DNA from: Thiogranum longum
Lineage (GTDB): Bacteria; Pseudomonadota; Gammaproteobacteria; DSM-19610
Assembly: GCF_004339085.1 (NCBI RefSeq)
Contig: NZ_SMFX01000001.1
Coordinates: 1-64,000, forward strand
Direction of reading: 5' to 3'
Length of the DNA stretch: 64,000 bases
The first letter of the stretch is position 1; every line of letters begins with the position of its first letter. A model generated the notes under the pieces. It was not told the origin of the DNA, did no database searches, and saw only the letters and a program-made list of their open reading frames with translations. Shown here piece by piece: positions 36,632 through 50,799 of the stretch. The position numbers and the translations under genes are program-made.

Positions 36632-37566
36632 TCATCGTCCTCGGCGTACAGGTCATCGAGAATTTGCCTTGCTCCGCGCGACAGCAGATCTTCTGCCAGC
36701 ACTCTTCCCAGCTCCTCGGCGTCTTCCGGTCGCCCACTGATCACACCCTGCACCATCTCGCTACCATCCGGCCGCCCCACCAGCGCGCGTAACACTATGA
36801 CGCCGTGGCTGATTTCGGAATAACCCGCAATAGGCACCTGACAACCGCCCTGCAGGGCTTCGTTCAGGGACCGTTCTGCGCGTATGCGCGTCGCCGTCTG
36901 TCCATCATTCAGCTCTTCTACCAGGCTACGTACGCGCGCATCGTTCACACGGATTTCGATGCCGATGGCCCCCTGGCCAATGGCCGGGATAAACTGCTCC
37001 GGTGCCAGTAACTCGGTGATACGCTCTTCCCAGCCCATACGTTTGACGCCCGCCGCCGCCAGCAGGATGGCGTCATAATCACCGTTATCCAGCTTGGCGA
37101 GGCGGGTATTGACGTTACCACGCAGGTCCAGAACTTCCAGATCCGGGCGAATACGCCGTAACTGGCACTGACGACGCAAGCTCGAAGTTCCCACTCTGGC
37201 GCCATCCGGCAACCCTTCGATAGAAGCATATTCGTTTGAAATCAATGCGTCACGGGGATCCTCTCGTGGCAATACAGCCGCCAGACCGAGACCTTCGGGA
37301 AATTCTACCGGCACATCCTTCATGGAATGCACGGCAAGGTCGGCGCGTCCTTCCAGCATACCGGTTTCCAGTTCCTTGACGAACAACCCCTTGCCACCGA
37401 CTTTTGCCAGCGGTGTGTCCAGGATTTTGTCGCCCTGCGTGGTCATAGTGACCAGTTCGACTTCGAGTTCGGGGTGTCTTGCAAGCAGTGCATCACGCAC
37501 GTGATTGGCTTGCCAGAGCGCGAGCGGGCTCTTGCGGGTTGCGATACGAAGTGTGGAATTTGTCAT
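36628..37566 (-). CDS. hemC: Hydroxymethylbilane synthase (porphobilinogen deaminase)
   Basis: The 312-residue enzyme begins [17 protein letters not shown], has [42 protein letters not shown] and the cofactor-binding cysteine C242 in [14 protein letters not shown]. It polymerises four porphobilinogens. I use the ATG at 37566 because it gives the family N-terminus; the longer reading adds an unrelated tail. It starts the hemCDXY operon. Confidence 0.97.
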
Positions 37567-37622
37567 GGCTACCTGACTTGCTAAAACTGTGAAAACCACC
37601 GATCCAGTCGGCATGGGAACCG

Positions 37623-37628
37623 TATAAT
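37623..37628 (+). promoter_or_regulatory. -10 box for the thioredoxin-like gene
   Basis: A perfect TATAAT lies 36 bases before the GTG start of the thioredoxin-like gene, in the divergent gap with hemC. The -35 region is poor. Confidence 0.4.
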
Positions 37629-37664
37629 GACCACCAGAGCGGAATATTTATGGGAGCATAACGA

Positions 37665-38159
37665 GTGACTGACAAGTGGTGCAAGTGGCCGCACATCATG
37701 GCCGGGATTTTTTTGCTGGTCGCGAACGTAACACGGGCCGCTGTGCCATTGGCGCAGGATCTGCAAAAGGACGGTCGCCAGGCTGAACGGTATTGTGCAC
37801 CCGTCCTGCTGGAGTTTGCCGCTGAATATTGTGATTACTGCATGTTACTTGAACATGAAATTCTTGACCCGACATTGTTGGACAGAGACTACGACCGACG
37901 CGTGCTGATGCGCAAGATTATGATTGACGGTAACCGCCGGCTGCTGGATTTTAATGGTAAAACAATCGATGAGCGCAGTATTGCCACTCACTATAAAGTC
38001 TGGGTGACGCCCACTGTGCTGTTTGTCGACCGTAACGGGATGGAAATAGCCAAACGCCTGGTCGGAATAAGTTCGGTGGATTTTTACGGGGGTTACCTGG
38101 ATGCCGCCCTGGACGAGTCACGGCGACGTCTACAGGAACTGGGGCGCTGCGACCCCTGA
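37665..38159 (+). CDS. Periplasmic thioredoxin-fold protein (SoxW/DsbD-gamma-like)
   Basis: A 164-residue protein with a signal-like segment (IMAGIFLLVANVTRAAVP, 11-28), then VLLEFAAEYCDYCMLLE with a CxxC redox pair at C56 and C59, and the cis-proline segment VWVTPTVLFVDRNG. It is a periplasmic thiol-disulfide protein; SoxW-like proteins in sulfur oxidisers look similar, but the function is inferred. The GTG start has GGGAG 8 bases upstream. It lies on the opposite strand between algR and hemC, which are usually adjacent. Confidence 0.82.
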   Translation: MTDKWCKWPHIMAGIFLLVANVTRAAVPLAQDLQKDGRQAERYCAPVLLEFAAEYCDYCMLLEHEILDPTLLDRDYDRRVLMRKIMIDGNRRLLDFNGKTIDERSIATHYKVWVTPTVLFVDRNGMEIAKRLVGISSVDFYGGYLDAALDESRRRLQELGRCDP

Positions 38160-38171
38160 ATGCCTCAGCAG

Positions 38172-38900
38172 TCAGGCGCCATTGCGAATATTCCGCCTGA
38201 CCTCAGGCAACAGCCTGCGACTCACTTCGAGGCGTTCTTCAACGCCATCGAGCACTACACTGACATGCCCCTGGCTGTCCTTTTCCAGTGCACGAATACA
38301 CTGTACTGCAACCAGGGCATTGCGGTGAATGCGCAAAAACCGGTCACCAAATTCCTCTTCCAGGGCCTTGAGTGCATCTTCAACCAGGATTTTCCGGGTA
38401 GCAGAACGTACCGTGACATATTTCTGATCGGCCTGCAGATAGACAACCTCTTCCACCGGAACCAGCTCCAGGTTTCCCCGGTTACGCGCACACAGGTGGG
38501 TACGCACATCGCTATCACCGCTGATATTTTCCAGCTGGACAAGGTTCAGCCGCCGCGCCTTTTCGAGTGCCTGCTGCAAGCGCTCGGGATGGATCGGCTT
38601 GAGCAAATAATCTATCGCCTGCGCTTCGAACGCCTCCAGCGCATGATCACCATAGGCGGTGGTAAACACCACGGCCGGTGGGTTATCCAGCTTTAGCAGG
38701 TGGCGCGCTGCTTCCAGGCCGTCCATGCCTGGCATGCGTATATCCATCAGAATCAGTTCTGGAACCAGCACCTGCGCCTGGTCAAGCGCCTGTTGTCCGT
38801 CTGCTGCCTCACCACAGACTTCACAGCCTTCCAGCTGATCGAGCATGCGAGTCAAACGTTCGCGTGCCAGCAATTCGTCATCCACCACCAGGCACTTCAT
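38172..38900 (-). CDS. algR: LytTR-family response regulator AlgR
   Basis: The 242-residue protein has a receiver (D7/D8, phospho-acceptor D53 in LILMDIRMPGMDG, K101 in DYLLKP) and a C-terminal LytTR DNA-binding domain (about 140-240; VEEVVYLQADQKYVTVRS, FLRIHRNALVAV). The neighbours algZ, argH and hemC are those of Pseudomonas AlgR. In Pseudomonas it controls alginate and type IV pilus genes; targets here are unknown. The start overlaps algZ as ATGA. Confidence 0.94.
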   Translation of the reverse strand: MKCLVVDDELLARERLTRMLDQLEGCEVCGEAADGQQALDQAQVLVPELILMDIRMPGMDGLEAARHLLKLDNPPAVVFTTAYGDHALEAFEAQAIDYLLKPIHPERLQQALEKARRLNLVQLENISGDSDVRTHLCARNRGNLELVPVEEVVYLQADQKYVTVRSATRKILVEDALKALEEEFGDRFLRIHRNALVAVQCIRALEKDSQGHVSVVLDGVEERLEVSRRLLPEVRRNIRNGA

Positions 38901-39955
38901 ATGGCCTTCTCCCTTGGGAAATACAGGGTTGTTTCAAATTCATCACCCACTTCTCGCAGCGCCACACCGGCCTGGTTACCAAACGCCAGCTGCAGGCGCA
39001 GGCGGATATTTTCGAGTGCGATGTGGTTACCCCTTCGGTGTGAGGCAACGCCATGTGGTGCACGTGGATTACGTACTGTAATGCTGATACGCCGGCCCTC
39101 GGCTGCACCGTGAATGACAATGCGCCCACCTTGTGGCAAGGCCTCGATACCGTGATATACGGCATTCTCCAGCAACGGCTGAAGAACCAGTGACGGTACC
39201 AGCCGCTTGCGCGGCAGACGGTCGATGTCCCACTCCACCTGCAGCCGCTCACCAAGACGCAGGCCCTCCATACGCAGGTAACGTCTGGCCACATCGATTT
39301 CCTCGTCCAGCGGTATACGCTCTGATGCATTACGCAGCGTGACGCGAAACAGGTCGGACAAATCCTGCACAGCCAACTCTGCACGCTGTGGATCACTACC
39401 TGTCAGTGCGGCAATACTGTTCATACTGTTGAACAGAAAGTGGGGTCTGATACGCGCCTGCAACGCCTGCACGCGCGCCTGCGACTCGGCCTGAATCTGC
39501 CGCCGCCATTGGTGCTGTACGAACAGATAGCGCAACACCAGCCCGCTAACGATGGCGCTGATGCCCGTATTGCGGAACAGGAACTCGACATGCCCCGCAG
39601 AACCACCATTCTGTTCCAGGCCGCCCATGTACCAGGCCAGTTCACTGATCAGCACCGTAACCAGCAGCAGTAACAGGTAGCTGGCCAGTACGGCGGCGGT
39701 ATTACTGATTTTCAGCAACAGTGGCCGGGCAAGACACAACGCAGCCGCGCTGCTCAGGGCAATCCATTGCAAAAACAGTGATACCAGCCCGAGATCATTC
39801 CAGGGGTCGGCGCGCCCGTTGGCCAACACCAGCACAAAGGCCAGCAGCTCGGCAATGACCACCACAGCGAATACCAGGCGGATATCACAGAAACTCGGCA
39901 GGAACAGGGTATCCTGCGGCAACTCTGACGAATTTTTTCGGCTTGTCTGGCCCAT
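38897..39955 (-). CDS. algZ: LytS/YehU-type sensor histidine kinase AlgZ (FimS)
   Basis: The 352-residue protein has four hydrophobic helices (about 25-145), then a His_kinase domain with [17 protein letters not shown] (H172) and an ATPase N-box [15 protein letters not shown]. This is the FimS/AlgZ architecture. I chose the ATG at 39955 because longer readings run into the oppositely transcribed argH start. It pairs with AlgR. It is divergent from argH. Confidence 0.92.
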
Positions 39956-40069
39956 GACAGCGATAACAGGTCCGGTGAAACGCCCAAAAACGGGCAACAC
40001 CATAATATCGGCCAGTGTTATCAGTACTTTGAGGTATACTGGCGCCCCGTTAACCGCACTTGCACCGAT

Positions 40070-41461
40070 ATGACCGACAAACCGAGCAGCGACAAGCCAT
40101 GGGGCGGTCGCTTTACCGAATCCACCGATGCTTTTGTGGAAGCTTTCACCGCTTCCGTCACCTTCGATCAGCGCCTGTATCGCTACGATATCGAAGGCTC
40201 CCGGGCGCACGCACGCATGCTCGCGCGGGTTGGCGTTATTACCGCTGAAGAGCGGGATACGATTCTTGCTGGCCTGGACGCCATCGAGAAACAGATCGAA
40301 GCCGGGGAGTTCGAATGGTCTGTCAGCCTCGAAGACGTGCACATGAATATCGAGGCACGGCTGACGGCGCTGGTCGGCGAAGCCGGTAAAAAACTGCACA
40401 CCGGCCGCTCGCGCAACGACCAGGTCGCCACTGATCTGCGCCTGTATCTGCGCGACCAGATCGATGCCACCTGTGCTGAATTATTACGCCTGCAGACTGG
40501 CCTGCTGGAACTGGCCGAGCGTGAAGCCGATACCATCATGCCCGGCTTTACCCATTTACAAGTCGCCATGCCGGTCACCTTTGGCCATCACATGCTGGCC
40601 TGGTTTGAAAACCTGCAACGCGACCGGGAACGCCTGATGGAAAGTCGCAGGCGGGTCAATGTGATGCCACTGGGCGCTGCCGCGCTGGCTGGCACCAGCT
40701 TTCCCATCGACCGTCACTATACCGCCGAATTGCTGGGCTTCGACGCGCCCGCCGAAAACTCGCTGGATGCGGTCAGCGACCGTGATTTTGTCATCGAATT
40801 CTGCAGCCATGCCGCACTGGTGCTTACCCACCTGTCACGCTTTTCTGAAGAACTGATCCTGTGGGCTTCCGCGCAGTTCGATTTCATTGATCTGCCGGAC
40901 CGGTTCTGTACCGGCTCAAGCATCATGCCGCAAAAGAAAAACCCCGATGTGCCGGAACTGGTACGTGGCAAGACCGGCCGCGTGACCGGAAACCTGATGA
41001 GCATGTTAATGCTGATGAAAGGTCAACCCCTGGCCTATAACAAGGACAACCAGGAAGACAAGGAACCCTTGTTCGACAGCGTGGATACACTGCTTGGCTG
41101 CCTGCGCGCCTTCGCTGACATGGTCCCCGCCCTGCAGGTGAAGAACAACAACATGCGGCAGGCGGCGGCCAGCGGTTATTCAACCGCCACTGATCTTGCC
41201 GATTACCTGGTGCGCAAGGGTGTTGCTTTCCGTGACGCGCATGAAATCGTCGGCACAGCAGTCCGGCTTGGTATCGACAGCGGGCGTGACCTGGCAGAAA
41301 TGGAACTGGCTGAACTGCAGTCCCTGTCACCTGCTATTGGCGAAGATGTGTTTGACGTATTGACACTTGAAGGTTCGGTTTCGGCGCGCAATCACTTTGG
41401 TGGCACAGCGCCGCAACAGGTGCGTGAGGCCATCGTGCGAGCGAAACAACGGCTGACCTGA
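40070..41461 (+). CDS. argH: Argininosuccinate lyase
   Basis: The 463-residue enzyme begins [20 protein letters not shown] and carries [32 protein letters not shown], the catalytic Ser loop [19 protein letters not shown] and the [14 protein letters not shown] motif. It splits argininosuccinate to arginine and fumarate. The divergent gap with algZ contains a TATACT -10-like box near 40035. Its stop directly abuts the stop of the converging GGDEF/EAL gene. Confidence 0.97.
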
Positions 41462-44215
41462 TCAGGCAACCGAAATAGTGGCCGGGCGCCTGCCTTCCAC
41501 ACTGGCAGGAATCAGCTCCTGCTCCGGCTTGCCCAGGTAGTAACCCTGTACGTAGTCCACGCCAAGGCTGCGTACCCGGTCGTATACCTGCTCGTTTTCC
41601 ACAAACTCGGCAATGGTACGCATACCCATGCCACGCGCCACATCAACCAGCGCCTTGACGAACAGCTGGTCGGCATTGTTATTGTGTATGTCGCGAATAA
41701 AACTGCCATCGATCTTCAAAATGTCAGCTCGCAGATGCTTGAGGTACGAGAACGACGAGAAGCCCACGCCAAAATCATCCAGTGAGATCCTGCAACCGAG
41801 CTGACGGATTTTCTGGATGAATTCCATCGCACTGGTGAGCTGTTCGCAAGCTGCAGTTTCGGTGATTTCAAACGTGATACGTGCCGGATCAACACCGGAT
41901 TCACGGACTTCTTTCTCGATACATTCATACATCTCCTGGCTACCCACCGACATGCCGGACAGGTTGATGGAAAATGCGGTCTGTGAAAATTCTGCGGGTA
42001 ACTCTGCCAGGTAACGAATGGCCTTGGTGAGCACATGCCGGTCAACACGCTGGATGAATCCGAACTGCTCGGCGGCCGGGATGAACTTTCCGGGGGGCAC
42101 CAGTTTGCCATTTTTCTCACGCATCCGGACCAGCACCTCGTAGTGAGAGGTACGACCGGCCGCAATGGCAACGATGGGCTGGAAAACCAGCACCAGCTCA
42201 TCACGGTCCAGTGCTTCCAGCAGACGATCCTTCCACACCAGCTGGTTATCCATCTCTTCACGCATCATCTCGGATTCGTCATACGCGCGCACGCAATTAC
42301 GCCCGCTGTGTTTTGCTGAACTCATGGCGGCATCGGCCTTAGCCAGCAATTCAACCGGCGCCTTGCCCTGCGCGGGGAAGGTTACGACACCGATACTTGC
42401 TGACACATTCAGGCTTCGCCCACCATAACGCGGCTTGAGCCTGCTGATCCGCTCCAGCAGTTCCGCCGCTTTTTCAAACCCCAGCTTTTCATCCATGCCA
42501 GGATAGGCCACTGCAAATTCATCACCACTGACCCGTGCAAGAAAATCCTGTTCACGTGAAGCACGCTTGAGCAGACCGGCAATCTGTACAATGATCTGGT
42601 CTCCAGCCGCATGACCGGCCGTATCATTGATCAGTTTCAAATGATCGATATCAATCAGCAGCAGCACACCGCTTTGTGAGTCTCGTTCAACACGTCGTAT
42701 TTCATGGTTGAGGTCCTGGATAAAGCGTCGTCGGTTGGACAAACCGGTCAGGTGGTCCTGGTTGGCCAGGACAACCATGCGCTTCTCATCCTGCTTGACC
42801 TTGGTGATATCACGCGCTGTACCACGGTAACCCTTGATTGATTTCCCCGAGAATACCGGTACACCGTTGAGACGCAGGCAATGCTGATCACCGTTTCTGG
42901 CGTGCACCCAAATTTCAACTTCCTTGAAAATATCGTGTCGATCTTCACCAGAGCGCAACAATGACATCAGTTCTCCCAGGCTTGAACCCGGGAAAACTTC
43001 TGCAGGCGTTCGCCCAAGCCAGCTTTCCGCCGGAATATCGAGTGTCTCGGAAACACTGGTTGAAACAAATGTGAAATGCCCGGAGCGATCTGTCTCCCAC
43101 AACCAGTCAGATGAACTGGAAGCAAAATCCCGGAACCGCCGCCTGCTGTTCTTCAGCTCGTTCTGTGAAGCATTGAGTGTACCCAGCATGGTATTGAATG
43201 AAGTCATCAGCTGACCCAGCTCATCCCTGCGAGCAAGCTTTATTTTCTGCGTCATATCACCGTTGGCAATGGCCTGTGTAGCATGCGCCAGCAATTGTAT
43301 GGGTCGCGTCAGGGTACGGCGACTGATAGTGATACCGAACAAACCGGCCAGCAGCAGGATCAGGGCAGAGAAATATAGTGCGTTTCCACCCAGCACCTGG
43401 AACGGTGCCCAGTAACTGGAATGCGGGACGGCCAATAAGACCTTTGCCGCTTTTCGTTCCGAGCCGGCATGATTCAATACAGGGAGCACACGAACACTGT
43501 AACGTTCACCATCCACATCCAGCACTGCGCCGCGCTGCGCCGGCTTGACCATATTGATCATCGGTAGCTGTGTTTTAAGACCGGGAATCGTGCTGGCCAG
43601 TACGACGCTATCGCTAAATATGGCAATATCTGCATACACCAGCTCCCGCAATGCCTGCAGGTCTTTCTCTGAAAAACGTTTTCCTACGATCAATGCGCCG
43701 ACACGGCCACCAAGCGGACTCTGTATAGGGACAGCAACAAGCTGCAACAGGCTGTCGAACAGTAATGCGTTTCCAAACTCAACGGGATCCCCGCTTGCCA
43801 ACCCTCGCACCAGGTCCAGAAGGTCTGCCGATCCCAGAACCTGAGAAGAAGTAAAATGCGGCTTGTCCCCGACCCCGGCAACATCACCTGGACCGGTATC
43901 CAGATAGACGGCAATAAAATCTGCACCCGGGCGCGGGTAGAGGTCATCCAGCATACCGCGAACGGTTGCGATATCACCGGTCAGTGCTGCTGCTATCAGG
44001 CTTGGTTCGCCACGTACACTGCGTGCCACGCTCAACAGATTATCGAACGTATTCTTCTGTGCGCTGACGAATACCTTGCTGGCTCGCTCAAGATCACCAT
44101 GAACGCCTGCCGTCACATGATCTCGAACCAACAGGAAGGCTGCACCTGCCACACCCATGAGCACGGCCAGCACCAGCGAAATAACAAACAGTGTATTTTT
44201 CTGTTCTATATTCAC
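41462..44215 (-). CDS. Membrane GGDEF/EAL protein with large periplasmic sensor
   Basis: A 917-residue protein: helix at about 7-29, a periplasmic sensing domain to about 285, a second helix, HAMP (about 305-358), PAS (about 365-480), GGDEF and EAL. The diguanylate cyclase core reads RVSGDEFAV (SGDEF), with an inhibition site REQD five residues before it. EAL residues are present: YEVLVRM, NLSGMS, FEITETAA, DDFGVG, KIDGSF, QGYYLGKP. The start is a GTG. It is coupled to the cupredoxin gene (20-base gap), so the periplasmic domain may sense a signal brought by that protein. Confidence 0.94.
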   Translation of the reverse strand: MNIEQKNTLFVISLVLAVLMGVAGAAFLLVRDHVTAGVHGDLERASKVFVSAQKNTFDNLLSVARSVRGEPSLIAAALTGDIATVRGMLDDLYPRPGADFIAVYLDTGPGDVAGVGDKPHFTSSQVLGSADLLDLVRGLASGDPVEFGNALLFDSLLQLVAVPIQSPLGGRVGALIVGKRFSEKDLQALRELVYADIAIFSDSVVLASTIPGLKTQLPMINMVKPAQRGAVLDVDGERYSVRVLPVLNHAGSERKAAKVLLAVPHSSYWAPFQVLGGNALYFSALILLLAGLFGITISRRTLTRPIQLLAHATQAIANGDMTQKIKLARRDELGQLMTSFNTMLGTLNASQNELKNSRRRFRDFASSSSDWLWETDRSGHFTFVSTSVSETLDIPAESWLGRTPAEVFPGSSLGELMSLLRSGEDRHDIFKEVEIWVHARNGDQHCLRLNGVPVFSGKSIKGYRGTARDITKVKQDEKRMVVLANQDHLTGLSNRRRFIQDLNHEIRRVERDSQSGVLLLIDIDHLKLINDTAGHAAGDQIIVQIAGLLKRASREQDFLARVSGDEFAVAYPGMDEKLGFEKAAELLERISRLKPRYGGRSLNVSASIGVVTFPAQGKAPVELLAKADAAMSSAKHSGRNCVRAYDESEMMREEMDNQLVWKDRLLEALDRDELVLVFQPIVAIAAGRTSHYEVLVRMREKNGKLVPPGKFIPAAEQFGFIQRVDRHVLTKAIRYLAELPAEFSQTAFSINLSGMSVGSQEMYECIEKEVRESGVDPARITFEITETAACEQLTSAMEFIQKIRQLGCRISLDDFGVGFSSFSYLKHLRADILKIDGSFIRDIHNNNADQLFVKALVDVARGMGMRTIAEFVENEQVYDRVRSLGVDYVQGYYLGKPEQELIPASVEGRRPATISVA

Positions 44216-44234
44216 GCGTTAGCCTGAATTCTCT

Positions 44235-44945
44235 TTATTCATGATAAAGCTGCTCGACGCCAGCCTGTGCATTCAACTGCCCACGACCTTGCCCACCACC
44301 ACGCGATACCAGCTGTAGTGACAGTGGTGGTGGTGATGTAATAGCACTGACCTCGAGCCAGCGCGTCTCGGCAGCAGGTGCAGCCAGGCGTAATTTCCAG
44401 CGCCCTTTCCCCAACCCGGCAAAATGAAAAGACCGCCCGGACTGCACAGTCTCCAGATATGAGGTGTCCACCACGTCAATGCGCGCATAACTCTTGTTAT
44501 GAATGCGGCAAAAGAAATGTGTTGTGCCTGGCATATCGAGAACCAGCCCCGGGCTGGTGGCTTCATTGCTGCCGGCACGATCGAGACGTATTGACCAGGG
44601 CTTGCCAGGAGACAGGGAAAATATCTCGTGGTAGACCCCGTCGCGATTAACAAAGCTGATACTGTCACCCTTCTTCACCGTAAAAAATGCCGGCGACATT
44701 CGATTACCTGCAATCTCGACCTTGTGATGCCGTTGACGCCGCGGTACAACATGCTGACCCTGTGCCGGCAGTAGCGCTACAGAAACAGGTTGTGGCTGGG
44801 CACTTGCGTCCGCCTCAAACATGCCCTGGTACGCAATCGTCACCGTGCCCTTCACCTCGGCGGCTGATACCTGCAACGGAGCAACAGCAAACTGGCCAAA
44901 CAGGGCCAGAGGCAATATTCCTGAATTCAGTATGTTGCGAACCAT
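44235..44945 (-). CDS. Periplasmic cupredoxin-like protein
   Basis: A 236-residue exported protein (signal to about residue 29, VSAAEV). The central domain (about 70-160) follows the plastocyanin pattern: FTVKKGDSISFVNRDGVYHE and LDMPGTTHFFCRIHNK. Copper ligands H106, C146 and H149 are visible, but the usual axial Met after the CxxH is absent (Ser152, Ala154). An N-terminal segment and a C-terminal beta domain (about 160-235) flank it. It resembles the so-called methylamine-utilisation protein found beside GGDEF/EAL genes. It is transcribed with the downstream c-di-GMP protein. Confidence 0.82.
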   Translation of the reverse strand: MVRNILNSGILPLALFGQFAVAPLQVSAAEVKGTVTIAYQGMFEADASAQPQPVSVALLPAQGQHVVPRRQRHHKVEIAGNRMSPAFFTVKKGDSISFVNRDGVYHEIFSLSPGKPWSIRLDRAGSNEATSPGLVLDMPGTTHFFCRIHNKSYARIDVVDTSYLETVQSGRSFHFAGLGKGRWKLRLAAPAAETRWLEVSAITSPPPLSLQLVSRGGGQGRGQLNAQAGVEQLYHE

Positions 44946-45008
44946 CAGCAGTCAATTTCCCTGATTTGTATACTTGCTCCTGGGTCTAGCGGCCGCGAAT
45001 GTGATTTA

Positions 45009-45386
45009 ATGAACCATATGAACCACCTGACTGACAGCGACAGTCTTGAGCAGCTGCGCCGGCAACTGGCCAGATTCGCTGATGAACGGGACTGGCAAAA
45101 ATTTCATTCACCGAAAAACCTTTCCATGGCGCTGATCGCCGAAGCCGCCGAACTGGTCGAGCACTTCCAGTGGCTGAGCGAAGCACAAAGCCACAGCCTC
45201 GATGAAGAAAAGCACGCGCAGGTGAGGCTGGAGCTGGCCGACATCCTGATCTACCTGATACGCACTGCCGACCAGCTGGAAATTGACCTGATCAGTGCCG
45301 CAAATGACAAAATCGTCATAAACGAAGAACGCTATCCCGTTGAAAAAGTTAGAGGAAAGGCAGGTCGCGCTGAAGATTTCCGCTAG
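45009..45386 (+). CDS. MazG-like nucleotide pyrophosphohydrolase
   Basis: A 125-residue all-alpha NTP pyrophosphohydrolase of the RS21-C6/MazG-like kind: WQKFHSPKNLSMALIAEAAE, the metal-binding EAAELVEHFQW and ELADILIYLIRTAD motifs, and KIVINEERYPVEKVRGKA. It hydrolyses non-canonical or excess (d)NTPs to monophosphates. Starts at 45009 or 45018 are equally possible. It lies divergent from the cupredoxin operon. Confidence 0.9.
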   Translation: MNHMNHLTDSDSLEQLRRQLARFADERDWQKFHSPKNLSMALIAEAAELVEHFQWLSEAQSHSLDEEKHAQVRLELADILIYLIRTADQLEIDLISAANDKIVINEERYPVEKVRGKAGRAEDFR

Positions 45387-45520
45387 CTCATCCAATGCGG
45401 GCCGGTACTCCGGTACCGCACGTTCCATATAAAGATTCCGTCACAGTTTCCGCTAACAATCGATGAGTCTGTCTACAGACAGTACCTCATATTTTTCATT
45501 TGCTGCGGAGAACCCTACGG

Positions 45521-46351
45521 ATGCCGGAATACCTGTCTCCAGAACAGGCATTGCGCCTGATCGAAACCTGCCCGATACCACTACTGGTACTTGACCACAC
45601 GGGTATCGTACATAGCTATAACCCGGCCTTTGCCGTACTGGCGGGTAAAACCCGGGCTGAAGCACTGACGGGAAAATCAGCCAGGTCAATCGGCAATACT
45701 TCACTGAAGGTGCTGCTTGCAACCGGCGCACCGATCAGCTGGCCTGATAGTAACGGTCAACCCCGACACTATGAGATCCATTGCTGCAACATCGACGGAC
45801 CCGACACTCTGGAAATCCGCTATTTTATCGACATCACCCGCCAGCGTGCGCTGCAGGATTCACACTGTGCACTGCGCGAAGAATTACGCGAAAACACCCT
45901 GACCGACCCCGTCACCGGACTACTCAACCAGCGCGGCGTTATACTTGCGCTTGAGCCACAGGTGGCACGATCGCGCCGCTACAACAGCCCGATATCTGTC
46001 ATCAGCCTGGATGTATATCGTGTCAGTGAAGATGACACGCTACGAAAACAGGTAGCACTACAGCTCAAGGATCAACTACGCTGGGCGGACCTTATTGGCT
46101 GTGATGAGAACCATGCCTTCCTGCTCATTCTCCCTGAAACGGGGGAAGATGATGCATGCCGACTGGCTGAAAAGCTGCGTACAAGGCTGGTTGAATTTTT
46201 ACAGGTTACATCTGCAAAACAGCAAATCTCGATCTTTTACGGTGTAACCGGCTGGCAAAGGACAGACAATGCCGCCACATTGCTCAGGCGTGCCGGGCGA
46301 GCCCTGGAACAGTCACGCTCCGGGCAGGAAACACAACCGGTAGCTTCATAG
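45521..46351 (+). CDS. PAS protein with a degenerate GGDEF domain
   Basis: The 276-residue protein has a PAS domain (about 8-110; IPLLVLDHTGIVHSYNPAFA) and a GGDEF-like domain (about 126-270) with LTDPVTGLLNQRGVI. The catalytic core is lost: the usual DxDxFKxIND region reads LDVYRVSEDD, and GGDEF is replaced by GCDENH (193-198). It should not make c-di-GMP but may bind a partner or nucleotide. It ends 12 bases before cyaA and is probably cotranscribed with it. The ATG at 45521 has GCGGAGA upstream; an upstream TTG is less likely. Confidence 0.82.
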   Translation: MPEYLSPEQALRLIETCPIPLLVLDHTGIVHSYNPAFAVLAGKTRAEALTGKSARSIGNTSLKVLLATGAPISWPDSNGQPRHYEIHCCNIDGPDTLEIRYFIDITRQRALQDSHCALREELRENTLTDPVTGLLNQRGVILALEPQVARSRRYNSPISVISLDVYRVSEDDTLRKQVALQLKDQLRWADLIGCDENHAFLLILPETGEDDACRLAEKLRTRLVEFLQVTSAKQQISIFYGVTGWQRTDNAATLLRRAGRALEQSRSGQETQPVAS

Positions 46352-46362
46352 AGCACCTGCAC

Positions 46363-49299
46363 GTGACCTCACCGCGCAAAACCACCGGAATGGTGGACGC
46401 TGCTGGCAAAAAAAGGGCTGGCGGCCAGATCGTCAAGGCGGAGTTCACGCGTTCTTCCAGTTCAACAATCGCCATTGACGCCCTCGAGTTGCGTGCGGTA
46501 AGGCGCCGTTTCATGGCGATAAACCAGGACAGACTACGTCGTGTCCGCGAATCACTGGAGCACCGCCAGCAGGTCTTTATGCAGCTTCTACCGCTGTTGT
46601 TCCACATCAATCACCCTATGTTGCCAGGCTATCTGACCAACAAGACACCGTGCGGAATCTCTGACTATGCGCCTGGCAAGCGTTGCATCCAGGCTGCGCG
46701 CAAGCTGGCCCGAAGCTTTAGTTACCAGCGTCGTGCACAACGGCGCTATTCCATTCACGCGCTTTACATGATGGGTAGTACGGGCACCATTGCCTACTCA
46801 CGCGCCAGCGATTTCGACATCTGGATCTGCCATCGCCCAGGTCTGCCGGACGACCAACTTGCCGCGCTGCGGGAAAAAGCTGACGGGATCCAGAGCTGGG
46901 CCGAATCCCTTGGACTGGAAGTGCACTTCTTCCTGATGGATGATGTGTCGTTCCGCGAACAGGAGCACCAGCAGCTTTCCAATGAAAATGCCGGCAGCTC
47001 ACAGCATCACCTGCTGCTCGACGAATTTTACCGAACGGGTTTACTGGTGGCAGGTCGCTTCCCGGTGTGGTGGCTGGTACCACCAGAATACGAATCGAGA
47101 TATGACGAGTACGTTGACAAACTGATCGTTAACCGTTTTATAAAGGCCGTTGACATTGTCGATTTCGGCGGACTTTCCGGGTTACCCAGCGAAGAGTTTT
47201 TTGGTGCCACCCTCTGGCAACTGTACAAGGCGGTCGACTCACCCTACAAGTCCATCCTCAAGATCCTGTTGATGGAAGCCTATGCCAATCAGTACCCGGA
47301 CATCGATCTGCTGGCGATGCGTTTCAAGAAGCTCGTTCATCAGGCGGACGTTCAGCTTGATCGTCTGGATCCCTATGTGATGATGTGTAACACAGTAGAG
47401 GAGTACCTGTTCTCACGCCGCGAGATGGAGCGCCTGGACCTGGCGCGGCGTTGTTTTTACTTCAAGGTCAACGAGGCCATGAGCAAGCCGGATCATGGCC
47501 TGGCACAGTCCTGGCGCCGCCAGGCCATCCGCGAGCTGGTAGAAAGCTGGGGATGGAGTCATTCCAAGCTCACCACGCTTGATCAGCGCCGGCAATGGAA
47601 AATAAAACGCGTTCTCGAGGAACGTCACTTGTTAGTGGATGAGCTGACGCGCAGCTATCGTGCCCTGTCCCAGTTTGGCAGGGAAAATGATGACAGCAAG
47701 GTATCCATCAATGCTGACGACCTCAACCTGCTTGGCAGAAAACTCTATGTTGCGTTTGAACGCAAGTCCGGGAAGGTTGAACTGATTAATCCCGGCGTCT
47801 CAAGCGACCTGTCGGAAGAGCGCCTTGCCTTGCATTACATCAGCGGTGAAGGACAGCACAGCTGGGCAATGTATCGCGGCCCTGTTCTCGAACGTGATAC
47901 CGCCGAAAACGAGCCGCTTAAGCGATCGGCAGGATTGCTGGATCTGCTTGCCTGGTGCCACTTCAACGGCCTGATTAATCGCAATCCGTCAACAGTGAGT
48001 ATTCATCCAACTGACTGCTGCCTGAGCCAGTGGGAGTTACGTTGCGTACTGGACTGCCTGCAACAACTGTTCCCCGGTGGCAGACTGCCGGACAACAACA
48101 TGGATGCACTGTCAAAATCAGCCACACTGTGCGAGGCCGGCCTGTTTATCAATCTTGCACAGGACCCGATGTCCAAGCTGACACGTAATGGTATGCAGCT
48201 GGTCAGCGAACGTATCGACCCGCTAAGCTATGGCGGGCAGTGGGAGAATCTTGCCATCAGCTTCCAGATGATCGCGCTGACATCGTGGGGTGAGGTACTG
48301 ACTTTCGGCTATTCCGGTCATACTGCACTGATGGACTGCCTGTGCGACTACTTTGCCTGGCAACCCGTAACTAACGGTTCGGCGCCACCTCCTATTCCCT
48401 GCTTCAGTTTTTCATCCTCACGCGGCGCCATTATCGCGCGGAGGATCGAAGACCTGTTCCGTGATGTCGCCGAGTATTTTTACCGAAACTACTGGCGGCG
48501 TCATGCCCGCTACGCCCTGCGCATTGGACAACATTATTTTGTACTCCAGTGTGAAAATGATGTGCCGCGTTACCTTGAGCTGGAATCCCGTGAAGCATTG
48601 CTTGACCATCTTGGCCAGGCCCAGGCATCATTCAGCCCGATCCATGTAGATGTACAGACACTGGATAACTCCCCTCTGGGCATTGCACTGAAACACAACC
48701 GCGAAGGCGTGGTGCAGCTGTTCTATCGACTCGATCATGGCCATGCCGAAGTGTGGATTCTCGACGAACGCGGCTCGCTGTTTCACCAACGAATTATTTT
48801 TCATGACCGCCAGACGCTGCTTGGACAGTTCCAGCGTTTTCTGGAAGCTGTGCGCTACCGACTACGCAATATGCAACAGCCAAGCAGCCTGTCAAATGAC
48901 GATGACACAGAATATTACCGTATCGTACGCGACAGCATGGGCCAGTGGTTTCCGGAAACACAGAAGACGTCACGCTGGATGGACAGCCATTATCTCGACG
49001 TTCAGGTTATTGGTAGTCCGGATGACAGCAACCGGGGGGCGTTCAGTATTTTCTGTGGCAACCGCGAGTTCTCCATACTGGAGCACGGTGATAATATTTT
49101 TCTGGCTGTCGCCAATTACATTACCGATCAACGCGGCAGTGGCAGCCGCTACCCGATTTATATTACCGATATCGACCTTTCATCTTCGGTATTTGCTTCA
49201 GATAGCGGAACCGGTGTGCAAACCATTCATTTCCTGAACCAGAAAAAACGCATCGAACAACAGCTGAACGAATCACTGCACCAGCTACGTAAAAACTGA
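46363..49299 (+). CDS. cyaA: Class I adenylate cyclase
   Basis: A 978-residue cytoplasmic enzyme. The N-terminal half has the nucleotidyltransferase signature MGSTGTIAYSRASDFDIWI (G138, S139, D150, D152) and YFPVWWL-type and EYDEYVDKL-like class I cyclase segments (FPVWWLVPPEYESRYDEY). The C-terminal half is the glucose-regulatory region. It converts ATP to cAMP. Translation starts at GTG 46363 or ATG 46390; the first 40 residues are low-complexity. It lies 12 bases after the degenerate GGDEF gene and converges on the DUF302 gene. Confidence 0.95.
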   Translation: MTSPRKTTGMVDAAGKKRAGGQIVKAEFTRSSSSTIAIDALELRAVRRRFMAINQDRLRRVRESLEHRQQVFMQLLPLLFHINHPMLPGYLTNKTPCGISDYAPGKRCIQAARKLARSFSYQRRAQRRYSIHALYMMGSTGTIAYSRASDFDIWICHRPGLPDDQLAALREKADGIQSWAESLGLEVHFFLMDDVSFREQEHQQLSNENAGSSQHHLLLDEFYRTGLLVAGRFPVWWLVPPEYESRYDEYVDKLIVNRFIKAVDIVDFGGLSGLPSEEFFGATLWQLYKAVDSPYKSILKILLMEAYANQYPDIDLLAMRFKKLVHQADVQLDRLDPYVMMCNTVEEYLFSRREMERLDLARRCFYFKVNEAMSKPDHGLAQSWRRQAIRELVESWGWSHSKLTTLDQRRQWKIKRVLEERHLLVDELTRSYRALSQFGRENDDSKVSINADDLNLLGRKLYVAFERKSGKVELINPGVSSDLSEERLALHYISGEGQHSWAMYRGPVLERDTAENEPLKRSAGLLDLLAWCHFNGLINRNPSTVSIHPTDCCLSQWELRCVLDCLQQLFPGGRLPDNNMDALSKSATLCEAGLFINLAQDPMSKLTRNGMQLVSERIDPLSYGGQWENLAISFQMIALTSWGEVLTFGYSGHTALMDCLCDYFAWQPVTNGSAPPPIPCFSFSSSRGAIIARRIEDLFRDVAEYFYRNYWRRHARYALRIGQHYFVLQCENDVPRYLELESREALLDHLGQAQASFSPIHVDVQTLDNSPLGIALKHNREGVVQLFYRLDHGHAEVWILDERGSLFHQRIIFHDRQTLLGQFQRFLEAVRYRLRNMQQPSSLSNDDDTEYYRIVRDSMGQWFPETQKTSRWMDSHYLDVQVIGSPDDSNRGAFSIFCGNREFSILEHGDNIFLAVANYITDQRGSGSRYPIYITDIDLSSSVFASDSGTGVQTIHFLNQKKRIEQQLNESLHQLRKN

Positions 49300-49312
49300 C
49301 ACAGTACCGCAC

Positions 49313-49756
49313 TTACTCACTGAGGCGAACCTGCTCCAGGATATGCTGTAAATCTGTCTCCCACACATCGAAATGTTTTCTGATATCTGCCTGCGTATAG
49401 AAAGGACGGAGATGCTCAAAACTGGATGCCAGCAGCAGGGTTTCGTCACCCTCGGCAAAAATCGCGATCTTCAGTGGTAAATACGGCACCAGGTCGAGGT
49501 AACGATCGCCCAGTTCCCTGATCTCCTCCGGCTTGCCAAAGAATACCACACGGTAACGGTCTGTCTTGAAACCGGATTTTGTCAGGCCGATATCCACGCG
49601 TTGTACACGTGACAAGGTATAGCCCTGTACCTTGATGGCTTTTTGCAAGGCAATCATGGTTTCAGGAAAAGCCATTTGCGAACGCGCCATATACAAATCC
49701 TGCGCATTCACCGAAGCAGCCACCATCAGCAGAATTCCTGCCAGCCATATTCTCAT
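49313..49756 (-). CDS. Exported DUF302-domain protein
   Basis: A 147-residue protein with a signal peptide (IWLAGILLMVAASVNA, to about 18) and a DUF302 domain (about 25-145; ALQKAIKVQGYTLSRVQRV, RYRVVFFGKPEEIREL, DLVPYLPLKIAIFAEGDET). The fold is TT1751-like; its ligand is unknown. It follows the cytochrome-DUF302 gene with an ATGA overlap, so the two form one unit. Confidence 0.85.
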   Translation of the reverse strand: MRIWLAGILLMVAASVNAQDLYMARSQMAFPETMIALQKAIKVQGYTLSRVQRVDIGLTKSGFKTDRYRVVFFGKPEEIRELGDRYLDLVPYLPLKIAIFAEGDETLLLASSFEHLRPFYTQADIRKHFDVWETDLQHILEQVRLSE

Positions 49757-50799
49757 AGCGTCGCCTCCTCGAGGATTTCTGTATAAAGACGGTGCATGCG
49801 CTCGCAGGCCTTGTCCAGCTCTCTGTTATTGAACAGGTGACTGAGGTTTTCAGGGTTGATGGTTACCAGCTCAATACCCTTTTCGGTCTCCTGCAGAGTC
49901 ACCCGGCAGGGAAGAAACAGCCCCACACGAGGATCTATCGAGAGCGCTTCGTTCAGGAAAGAGAAGCTGCAGAAATAAACAATGTACTGACGCCTGCTTT
50001 CCTTGTTCTTTTCAACAAACCCGCTATCCAGTGTCTGCTCGCGTATAACGCGGAAATTGCGTGCAGATATGGCTTTCTTCAGGTTATCCAGCGTCTCCTC
50101 GAAGCTGTAGGAAGACTCCATGCGGATAACCGGTGACTCGCTCTTGCGCACCGGTGCAGAATCAGCGGGCAACTGACGCAACCACGCAACCAGATCATCA
50201 GCATCGCCTTCCTTTAACCCCAACTCAGTGATAGAGGGCATTGGCGTACCATGCCGCCCACGTAACAGGGTCGCCTTTAGCATGGCATCACTCACCGATT
50301 GCTGGAACCCGGGATTATTCAGCGCTGGTGCCATGATCGGTGCTTCGCGCGGCCGCGAGAATGTTACACCGGTACCCTCACCTCCCTGGCCACGTTCCCC
50401 GTGACAGGCAACGCAATATTGCGTGAACAACTGCTTGCCACGCACGGCATCACCCTTCAGTGGTTTACTGTCATAGTCCGGCGGCGGCACCCCGGACCAG
50501 CCCCGTACTGTCTGGATAATAGCACCCACCTCGTCCTCTGAAAGTAACGGGAAGGCAGGCATAACCCGGCCTGGTCGGCCATTACGCACCGTTTTTCTCA
50601 GGTAGTCGTCGCTGGCTACCGCCAGAAAATCAGGAAGATTCAGCGGTACACCGACACCACCGCTGCCATCACTGCCGTGGCAGGCGGCACAATGTTGCTG
50701 GTAAAGCTCATCTCCGTCGGAATGATCCGCTTGTGCGACAAGGGTTGTGGCGGTCATCAGTGCCAGCACCGTAAACAGGTATTGTATTTGTTTCTTCAT
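49753..50799 (-). CDS. Di-haem cytochrome c fused to a DUF302 domain
   Basis: A 348-residue periplasmic protein: signal peptide to about residue 24, two class I cytochrome c domains with haem sites CAACH (37-41) and CVACH (129-133), then a DUF302 domain (about 225-345; DNLKKAISARNFRVI, LPCRVTLQETEKGIELVTI). Met ligands are likely in GRVMPAFP and GTPMPSI. The fusion ties DUF302 to electron transfer in the periplasm. It is coupled by ATGA overlap to the stand-alone DUF302 gene. The electron partner is unknown. Confidence 0.9.
   Translation of the reverse strand: MKKQIQYLFTVLALMTATTLVAQADHSDGDELYQQHCAACHGSDGSGGVGVPLNLPDFLAVASDDYLRKTVRNGRPGRVMPAFPLLSEDEVGAIIQTVRGWSGVPPPDYDSKPLKGDAVRGKQLFTQYCVACHGERGQGGEGTGVTFSRPREAPIMAPALNNPGFQQSVSDAMLKATLLRGRHGTPMPSITELGLKEGDADDLVAWLRQLPADSAPVRKSESPVIRMESSYSFEETLDNLKKAISARNFRVIREQTLDSGFVEKNKESRRQYIVYFCSFSFLNEALSIDPRVGLFLPCRVTLQETEKGIELVTINPENLSHLFNNRELDKACERMHRLYTEILEEATL

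Follow-up and report, generated by a model that had tools for sequence, protein, structure and literature searches.

A cupredoxin-like protein as the candidate periplasmic input subunit of a double-Cache c-di-GMP receptor in Thiogranum longum and its relatives

The signals of many membrane enzymes of cyclic di-GMP (c-di-GMP) turnover are unknown. Some bacterial receptors rely on a separate periplasmic protein: LuxQ, the output of which is a histidine kinase, reads its signal via LuxP, a protein of the sugar-binding type, and in NspS-MbaA and YfiR-YfiN a periplasmic partner of yet another fold controls a membrane c-di-GMP enzyme. Direct metal sensing has been described as well, iron binding being reported for IsmP in the consulted part of PMC10904736 and likely copper binding for PA14_37690 in that of PMC13277305. 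Here we analyzed a stretch of 64,000 nucleotides (nt) of Thiogranum longum (contig NZ_SMFX01000001.1, positions 1 to 64,000; the window), in which the gene of an exported cupredoxin-like protein directly precedes that of a membrane-bound sensor-HAMP-PAS-GGDEF-EAL protein (Table 1). We consider it probable that this cupredoxin acts as the periplasmic co-receptor, that is the input subunit, of the adjacent Cache sensor.

An earlier sequence-only reading of the window had described a close tandem of the two genes 20 bases apart; both open reading frames were found as it described them, with a gap of 19 nt (44216-44234) between the cupredoxin stop and the sensor-enzyme start. The N-terminus of the cupredoxin is hydrophobic and signal-like, and its gene is under purifying selection (ratio of nonsynonymous to synonymous substitution rates of 0.13 against the orthologue of genome G012). 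Among 20 genomes of the order, 15 carry the cupredoxin gene (13 complete, one truncated where its contig ends and one a remnant), all 15 next to a sensor gene, while a sensor match occurs in 18; 7 of the 12 named relatives are metagenome-assembled genomes of Thiohalobacter or Thiogranum. The order argH - sensor - cupredoxin - mazG - cyaA, with genes named by eye, recurs across the clade of the window.

Beyond the order, cupredoxin matches, many of them short or weak, were obtained in 68 of 369 genomes of the class and in 133 of 398 of the phylum. The neighborhoods were sampled as the 12-kb regions of 39 of 73 class-survey match rows (one an order member) plus genome G009, and as 59 of the phylum-survey matches listed, namely the strong matches with a small number of weak ones. 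Of the 99 usable loci (two of which, L172 and L173, overlap), 80 were classed as long-form and 19 were left out by span (140) or score (140 bits), and the signaling domains of neighbors were assigned with small purpose-built hidden Markov models. In 66 of the 80 long-form loci a signaling gene follows on the same strand within 700 nt, encoding a GGDEF/EAL protein in 54 (EAL plus GGDEF in 51, EAL in two, GGDEF in one), a Ser/Thr kinase in six, a class III cyclase in five and a histidine kinase in one; the base rate of GGDEF is about 1% of genes (33 matches in the 2.9 Mb window genome, with the gene number inferred). None of ten short-form cupredoxins (match of 83-94 residues) is followed by a signaling gene on its strand within the next 1.5 kb. 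The sequence-only reading had called for such a co-occurrence survey and named absence of the pair elsewhere as grounds against itself; the survey finds the pair conserved in the order and in the phylum.

Pfam scans of 11 long-form partners, whose outputs include GGDEF/EAL, class III cyclase, Ser/Thr kinase and histidine kinase, identified dCache_3 in nine (eight over the cut-off), a sub-threshold dCache_1 in one and neither in L065, together with HAMP in ten (two below cut-off). Judged by this domain content, the cupredoxin and the periplasmic sensor are the shared parts of the system, and the outputs are swapped.

Additionally, the fate of the sensor where the cupredoxin is missing ties the two together. 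At the same locus, eight genomes lack the cupredoxin, three of the genus (G017, G018 and G007) and five of families f44 and f46; G015 has lost the copper domain but still carries the C-terminal domain and the sensor gene. Assembly gaps are not the explanation, because mazG and the sensor gene stand too close together to leave room for a cupredoxin; G007 is the exception, its examined stretch having yielded no mazG. Two incomplete genomes, G010 (82% complete) and G019 (85% complete), have a match to neither cupredoxin nor sensor. The G018 sensor has also lost residues 63-173, and that of G007 has no detectable similarity before residue 249. Compared with the window protein, the five f44/f46 proteins retain 54-57% identity in GGDEF-EAL and 15-20% in the sensor, versus 57-62% and 40-48% in five cupredoxin-positive relatives; the corresponding catalytic and sensor values are 54% and 25% in G108, 56% and 40% in G074, and 77% and 53% in G017.

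On a fixed tree of 26 sequences, the ratio of sensor to catalytic tip-branch length ranges from 0.90 to 2.9 in the nine cupredoxin-positive tips with a catalytic branch above 0.013, and from 3.07 to 31 in nine tips with lost or gutted cupredoxin (6.1 in G015); G074 (2.89) and G108 (3.28) were kept apart from both groups, and internal branches in f44 give 6.1 and 6.8. In a comparison of 11 cupredoxin-positive with seven other sequences of the same set, 43 of the 65 conserved sensor positions of the former fall in the distal Cache half, and the latter, which are without intact cupredoxin, show a mean retention of 0.45 in the sensor as against 0.87 in the catalytic part. The losses within the genus are nested in cupredoxin-positive lineages, with several nodes weakly supported (49-81); f44 and f46 may have lost the gene once or twice, or may never have had it. 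As far as alignments and trees can tell, in the nine genomes without intact cupredoxin the sensor has diverged faster or is truncated or replaced, and GGDEF-EAL is conserved.

The sensor itself was assigned by modeling. Pfam finds HAMP, PAS, GGDEF and EAL in the 917-residue protein, and the model of residues 1-305 (predicted local distance difference test, pLDDT, 93) is double-Cache-like. The best solved match by Z score is the periplasmic domain of LuxQ (Z 16.1, root-mean-square deviation 3.8, 204 residues aligned), the LuxQ matches including LuxP-LuxQ complexes, and the best by Foldseek E-value is the chemoreceptor Mlp24; many Cache domains match at Z 12-14, near the range deemed unspecific for long helices. 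The motif residues of GGDEF and EAL look intact, which would leave both activities possible.

The partner protein matches the cupredoxin families of Pfam only below threshold (13.4 bits against a cut-off of 21.2 for PF00127 Copper-bind), and its fold was recognized from the structure model (mean pLDDT 87), in which residues 71-159 form a cupredoxin fold that Foldseek matches to amicyanin, pseudoazurin and plastocyanin; the 50 best structural rows (Z 10.9-12.1) are mostly plastocyanins and amicyanins. The C-terminal domain of relatives matched CarboxypepD_reg below the cut-off in four of six scanned cupredoxins and not at all in two, while that of L243 lies just over it. The relationship to MauL comes from tblastn matches to records named 'methylamine utilization protein' (E down to 6e-7), which is also the NCBI product name of several relatives. 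The sole PF00127 protein found in the window genome lies outside the window (C1:1254390-1254707). Selenocysteine was considered for G371, G276 and G165, and the TGA within each match proved to be an ordinary stop near the protein end.

Axial Met is a common, not universal, ligand of type 1 copper proteins. The sequence-only reading had noted that the window cupredoxin keeps H106, C146 and H149 and lacks the axial Met. The three ligands are indeed present, and they are invariant in 13 sequences of the order (contig-cut and remnant genes left out). No Met follows H149, and the residue three positions after this His, the site of the axial Met in amicyanin, is Ser152, an assignment that rests on the gap-free alignment of the loop C-R-I-H-N-K-S with C-N-I-H-D-W-M of the wider family. 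The missing Met holds for the window protein and fails as a family trait: it is present in 73 of the 80 long-form relatives, and the seven exceptions (Ser in four, Asn in one, and G074 and G108) all belong to the clade of the window, in which two of the nine loci among the 80 (L049 and L050) retain it. Therefore, loss of Met is a feature of this clade and does not define the system. One further order member (L015) has Glu at the axial position; G074 has lost one His ligand and retains a Met one residue closer, and G108 has lost the Cys and the third-ligand His, both being still paired with a sensor. The copper site of the clade, as read from the aligned sequences, is thus altered, with ligands being lost. 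Loss of Met need not abolish copper binding, since the PDB lists the amicyanin mutants M98A and M98Q with Cu(II), and the window cupredoxin may bind copper.

In a large part of the wider family the pair belongs to a larger cassette. A gene of the DUF3034 family, the function of which is unknown according to Pfam, occurs in the examined stretches of 34 of the 80 long-form loci, 33 of which also encode a truncated globin; Pfam confirmed the globin (PF01152) in L152 and L243 and DUF3034 (PF11231) in L073 and L243, and export signals were seen by eye in three truncated-globin sequences. Public annotation contains the same set, with DUF3034, a group 1 truncated haemoglobin, the cupredoxin ('methylamine utilization protein') and an 'EAL domain-containing protein' together in a Caballeronia record, and the same four genes in a Novosphingobium record, which names the cupredoxin after its carboxypeptidase-regulatory-like domain; a Comamonas record has a cupredoxin-family gene with an EAL gene, and a distant Sinorhizobium relative has no sensor gene annotated beside the cupredoxin. 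Neither DUF3034 nor globin occurs in the examined stretches of the window's clade (0 of 9), and a search of the window genome found neither; DUF3034 also matched none of 14 control genomes. That a globin accompanies a blue-copper protein points to redox, O2 or nitric oxide (NO) as a likely input. Truncated haemoglobin and DUF3034 genes also lie side by side in L243 and L245.

Based on the findings in this work, the co-receptor would operate as follows. The small protein would be exported to the periplasm and dock on the double-Cache domain, most likely on its membrane-distal half; the state of the cupredoxin (copper loaded or empty, oxidized or reduced, or with another ligand bound) would set the conformation of the Cache dimer, and HAMP and PAS would relay this to GGDEF-EAL, so that c-di-GMP synthesis or breakdown would shift. 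The physical contact between cupredoxin and sensor, and likewise the sign of the effect on c-di-GMP, are what we infer. For the wider family, redox or copper chemistry is the probable input, given that these proteins keep the complete His-Cys-His-Met site and are often encoded together with a truncated globin; this is less sure for the window's clade, where the cupredoxin may be heading to a plain protein-ligand role.

Several results weigh against the co-receptor reading. Fourteen of the 80 long-form relatives have no downstream signaling gene; of these, L140 sits at the end of a contig, L056 has a kinase only after 1.75 kb, L074 is paired divergently across a 13-nt gap, L084, L147 and L163 have another signaling gene in the vicinity, and the remaining eight have none near. 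The cupredoxin is not indispensable, because the sensor gene persists without it in eight genomes (truncated or replaced in two), and the paired cupredoxins of G074 and G108 have lost copper ligands. The sensor of G017 is only mildly diverged (53% versus 56-65% at like catalytic identity), the internal branch of the cupredoxin-negative f46 has an ordinary ratio of 2.9, poor alignment of divergent sensors may inflate the ratios, and the two groups of tips overlap if the six positive tips excluded for a catalytic branch of 0.013 or less (ratios 2.5-5.5) are included. Moreover, Pfam gives no Cache or dCache match in the window sensor at E up to 1. The distances between proteins are also divided: over 44 GGDEF/EAL pairs, the partial rank correlation of cupredoxin with sensor given EAL is 0.50 (reached in 0 of 2000 permutations), and that of cupredoxin with EAL given sensor is as high, 0.54. 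Without the nine clade loci (35 pairs) the two values are 0.61 and 0.05, which we take as informative because the clade split drives both correlations in the full set, a preference settled after both results had been seen.

Three other explanations were considered against the same evidence. A conventional role of the cupredoxin, as electron carrier or copper protein of some envelope process to which the c-di-GMP of the operon is tuned with no contact between the proteins, would suit the frequent DUF3034 and globin genes (34 and 33 of 80), the annotated four-gene sets of Caballeronia and Novosphingobium, the loci L168 and L169 (below the long-form score cut), which have DUF3034 and cupredoxin and no GGDEF/EAL in the stretch, and L152, where cupredoxin, DUF3034 and globin occur with no sensor directly downstream. 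However, the pair persists in the window's clade with neither DUF3034 nor globin nearby, the outputs vary while the pair persists, and it is the sensor domain, not the enzyme, that tracks the cupredoxin, so that we regard this explanation as unlikely. Because branch rates and pairwise distances link the cupredoxin to the sensor, a sensing partner fits better than an unrelated electron carrier; the proposal of the sequence-only reading, a sensing ligand and not an electron carrier, therefore gains from the conserved, sensor-linked pair, and it loses the missing Met as a family-wide argument. Still less probable, indeed very improbable, is that the adjacency reflects shared ancestry of one locus with no functional link: the gene order recurs throughout the clade, as this would predict, but the phylum survey disfavors it, the pairing being found across the phylum with other output types, and the sensor diverges where the cupredoxin is missing.

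Somewhat less unlikely than the electron carrier, although still doubtful, is a cupredoxin that has no copper function in this clade and serves as a metal-free protein ligand or stabilizer of the sensor. The replacement of the axial Met by Ser, Asn or Glu, the further ligand losses in the still paired G074 (His) and G108 (Cys and His), and G015, in which only the C-terminal domain and the sensor gene are left, all point in this direction. On the other side stand the invariant H106, C146 and H149 of the 13 order sequences, the Cu(II) structures of the amicyanin mutants, and the sensors of G108 and G015, the identity of which is low for their catalytic part, with the high tip ratio of G015. Extending the co-receptor reading to the whole family, we tentatively suggest, at slightly less than even chances, a widespread module: a blue-copper protein would serve double-Cache receptors as a detachable input, the output being exchangeable between c-di-GMP, cyclic nucleotide, Ser/Thr kinase and histidine kinase, and the genes of a DUF3034 protein and an exported truncated haemoglobin would often accompany it; such a module would read periplasmic redox, O2/NO or copper, and the window's clade would be dismantling the copper site while keeping the protein-protein signaling.

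Table 1. Features of the cupredoxin and sensor-enzyme genes in the window (aa, amino acids; TM, transmembrane)
Feature	Position	Strand	Remarks
Exported cupredoxin-like protein	44235-44945	(-)	236 aa, ATG start, MauL-like family
Cupredoxin domain, residues 71-159	44469-44735	(-)	aligns to plastocyanin/amicyanin, Z about 11-12
His106, first Cu ligand (by sequence)	44628-44630	(-)	invariant in 89 aligned sequences, window included
C146-R-I-H149-N-K-S152, second and third ligands, Ser152 at amicyanin axial-Met position	44490-44510	(-)	
C-terminal beta-strand domain, residues 160-215	44301-44468	(-)	DSSP of model; CarboxypepD_reg-like in relatives
Membrane sensor-HAMP-PAS-GGDEF-EAL protein	41462-44215	(-)	917 aa, GTG start
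Periplasmic double-Cache-like sensor, residues 31-275, between two predicted TM helices	43391-44125	(-)	model
Membrane-distal Cache half, residues 71-181	43673-44005	(-)	holds most conserved sensor positions
HAMP domain, residues 299-348	43172-43321	(-)	Pfam
PAS domain, residues 367-474	42794-43117	(-)	Pfam
GGDEF domain, motif SGDEF with RxxD I-site spacing	42296-42766	(-)	Pfam and motif reading
EAL domain, EVL motif; N, E, DD, K, E, Q motif residues present	41525-42229	(-)	Pfam

Around the pair, the open reading frames of 37000-50000 include what we take by eye to be argH, mazG, cyaA, hemC and an alg-type regulator pair. A PAS-like protein that matches GGDEF weakly (E 3.5e-12) is encoded at 45500-46351 on the plus strand; its homologue is gone together with the cupredoxin in G017 and G018, and is present in the f44/f46 genomes, which also lack the cupredoxin.

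The survey also returned other arrangements of cupredoxins and receptors. Of the short-form loci, five in class relatives (L067, L069, L076, L077 and L082) encode cupredoxins of about 110 residues with a C-A-I-H-P-x-M loop and have a methyl-accepting chemotaxis protein (MCP) gene within 1.1 kb upstream; in L076 the cupredoxin also adjoins a MauG-type di-haem peroxidase gene; short cupredoxins and MCP genes possibly constitute a cupredoxin-linked chemotaxis system. The overlapping L172/L173 (G515:C2) hold two cupredoxin matches and MCP genes in about 14 kb, and one cupredoxin reading frame of L172, outside the ten short forms, has an MCP gene directly after it. In L057 (G111) the cupredoxin is flanked by a HisKA-response regulator-Hpt sensor gene on one side and a class III cyclase gene on the other, and is perhaps one input common to two receptors. 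In L068, L127, L137 and L146 a sensorless cupredoxin is followed by a protein of about 400 residues (no Pfam match in L068 and L137), and the gene after GGDEF/EAL in L075 encodes a protein about as long, again with no Pfam match.

In the open-access literature searched we found no description of a cupredoxin controlling a c-di-GMP enzyme, nor of the cupredoxin-DUF3034-globin-EAL cassette: a term search of a review of c-di-GMP inputs (PMC8846402) returned neither 'copper' nor 'cupredoxin', the word 'cupredoxin' does not occur in PMC13277305, and the consulted portions of PMC5847120, PMC9592645 and PMC3770913 do not describe pair or cassette. The module offers a testable input for a sizeable set of membrane c-di-GMP enzymes, links a family of electron-transfer proteins to signaling, and would account for the 'methylamine utilization protein' product beside EAL proteins. 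The natural losses at one locus can be compared as they stand, and the decaying copper sites make it possible to ask directly whether the signal needs the metal. Together this suggests a common and little-noticed way for bacteria to sense extracellular redox or metal signals.

In conclusion, the window pair combines features of several described systems. Its cupredoxin shares the fold, the loop spacing and three copper ligands with amicyanin and the MauL-type cupredoxins, the likeness to MauL being drawn via the product names of relatives, but it has an extra C-terminal domain and Ser in place of Met. Its enzyme resembles IsmP (PA2072) and PA14_37690 of Pseudomonas aeruginosa, in which GGDEF-EAL is likewise coupled to a periplasmic domain of the CHASE4/Cache type (Z 13.8), although in these the sensor itself binds the metal and the consulted parts of the reports name no cupredoxin partner (PMC10904736, PMC13277305). 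HmsC-HmsD of Yersinia likewise joins a periplasmic protein to a membrane diguanylate cyclase and is tied to periplasmic redox, whereas HmsC, in the part of the review consulted, is characterized by cysteine pairs and not as a cupredoxin (PMC8846402). In the VtrA/VtrC co-component systems, as far as the consulted part of PMC9214523 describes them, adjacent genes also form one fast-evolving periplasmic sensor, but with a lipocalin-like partner and a DNA-binding output. The module is apparently undescribed, and would apply a known principle, the receptor controlled by a periplasmic partner, with a new sort of partner. LuxP-LuxQ, the Vibrio autoinducer-2 receptor, is the closest parallel, as a double-Cache receptor of which LuxQ is the best Z match to the window sensor; because the window partner is a cupredoxin and not of the binding-protein fold, the pair would work like LuxP-LuxQ without being a member of that system.

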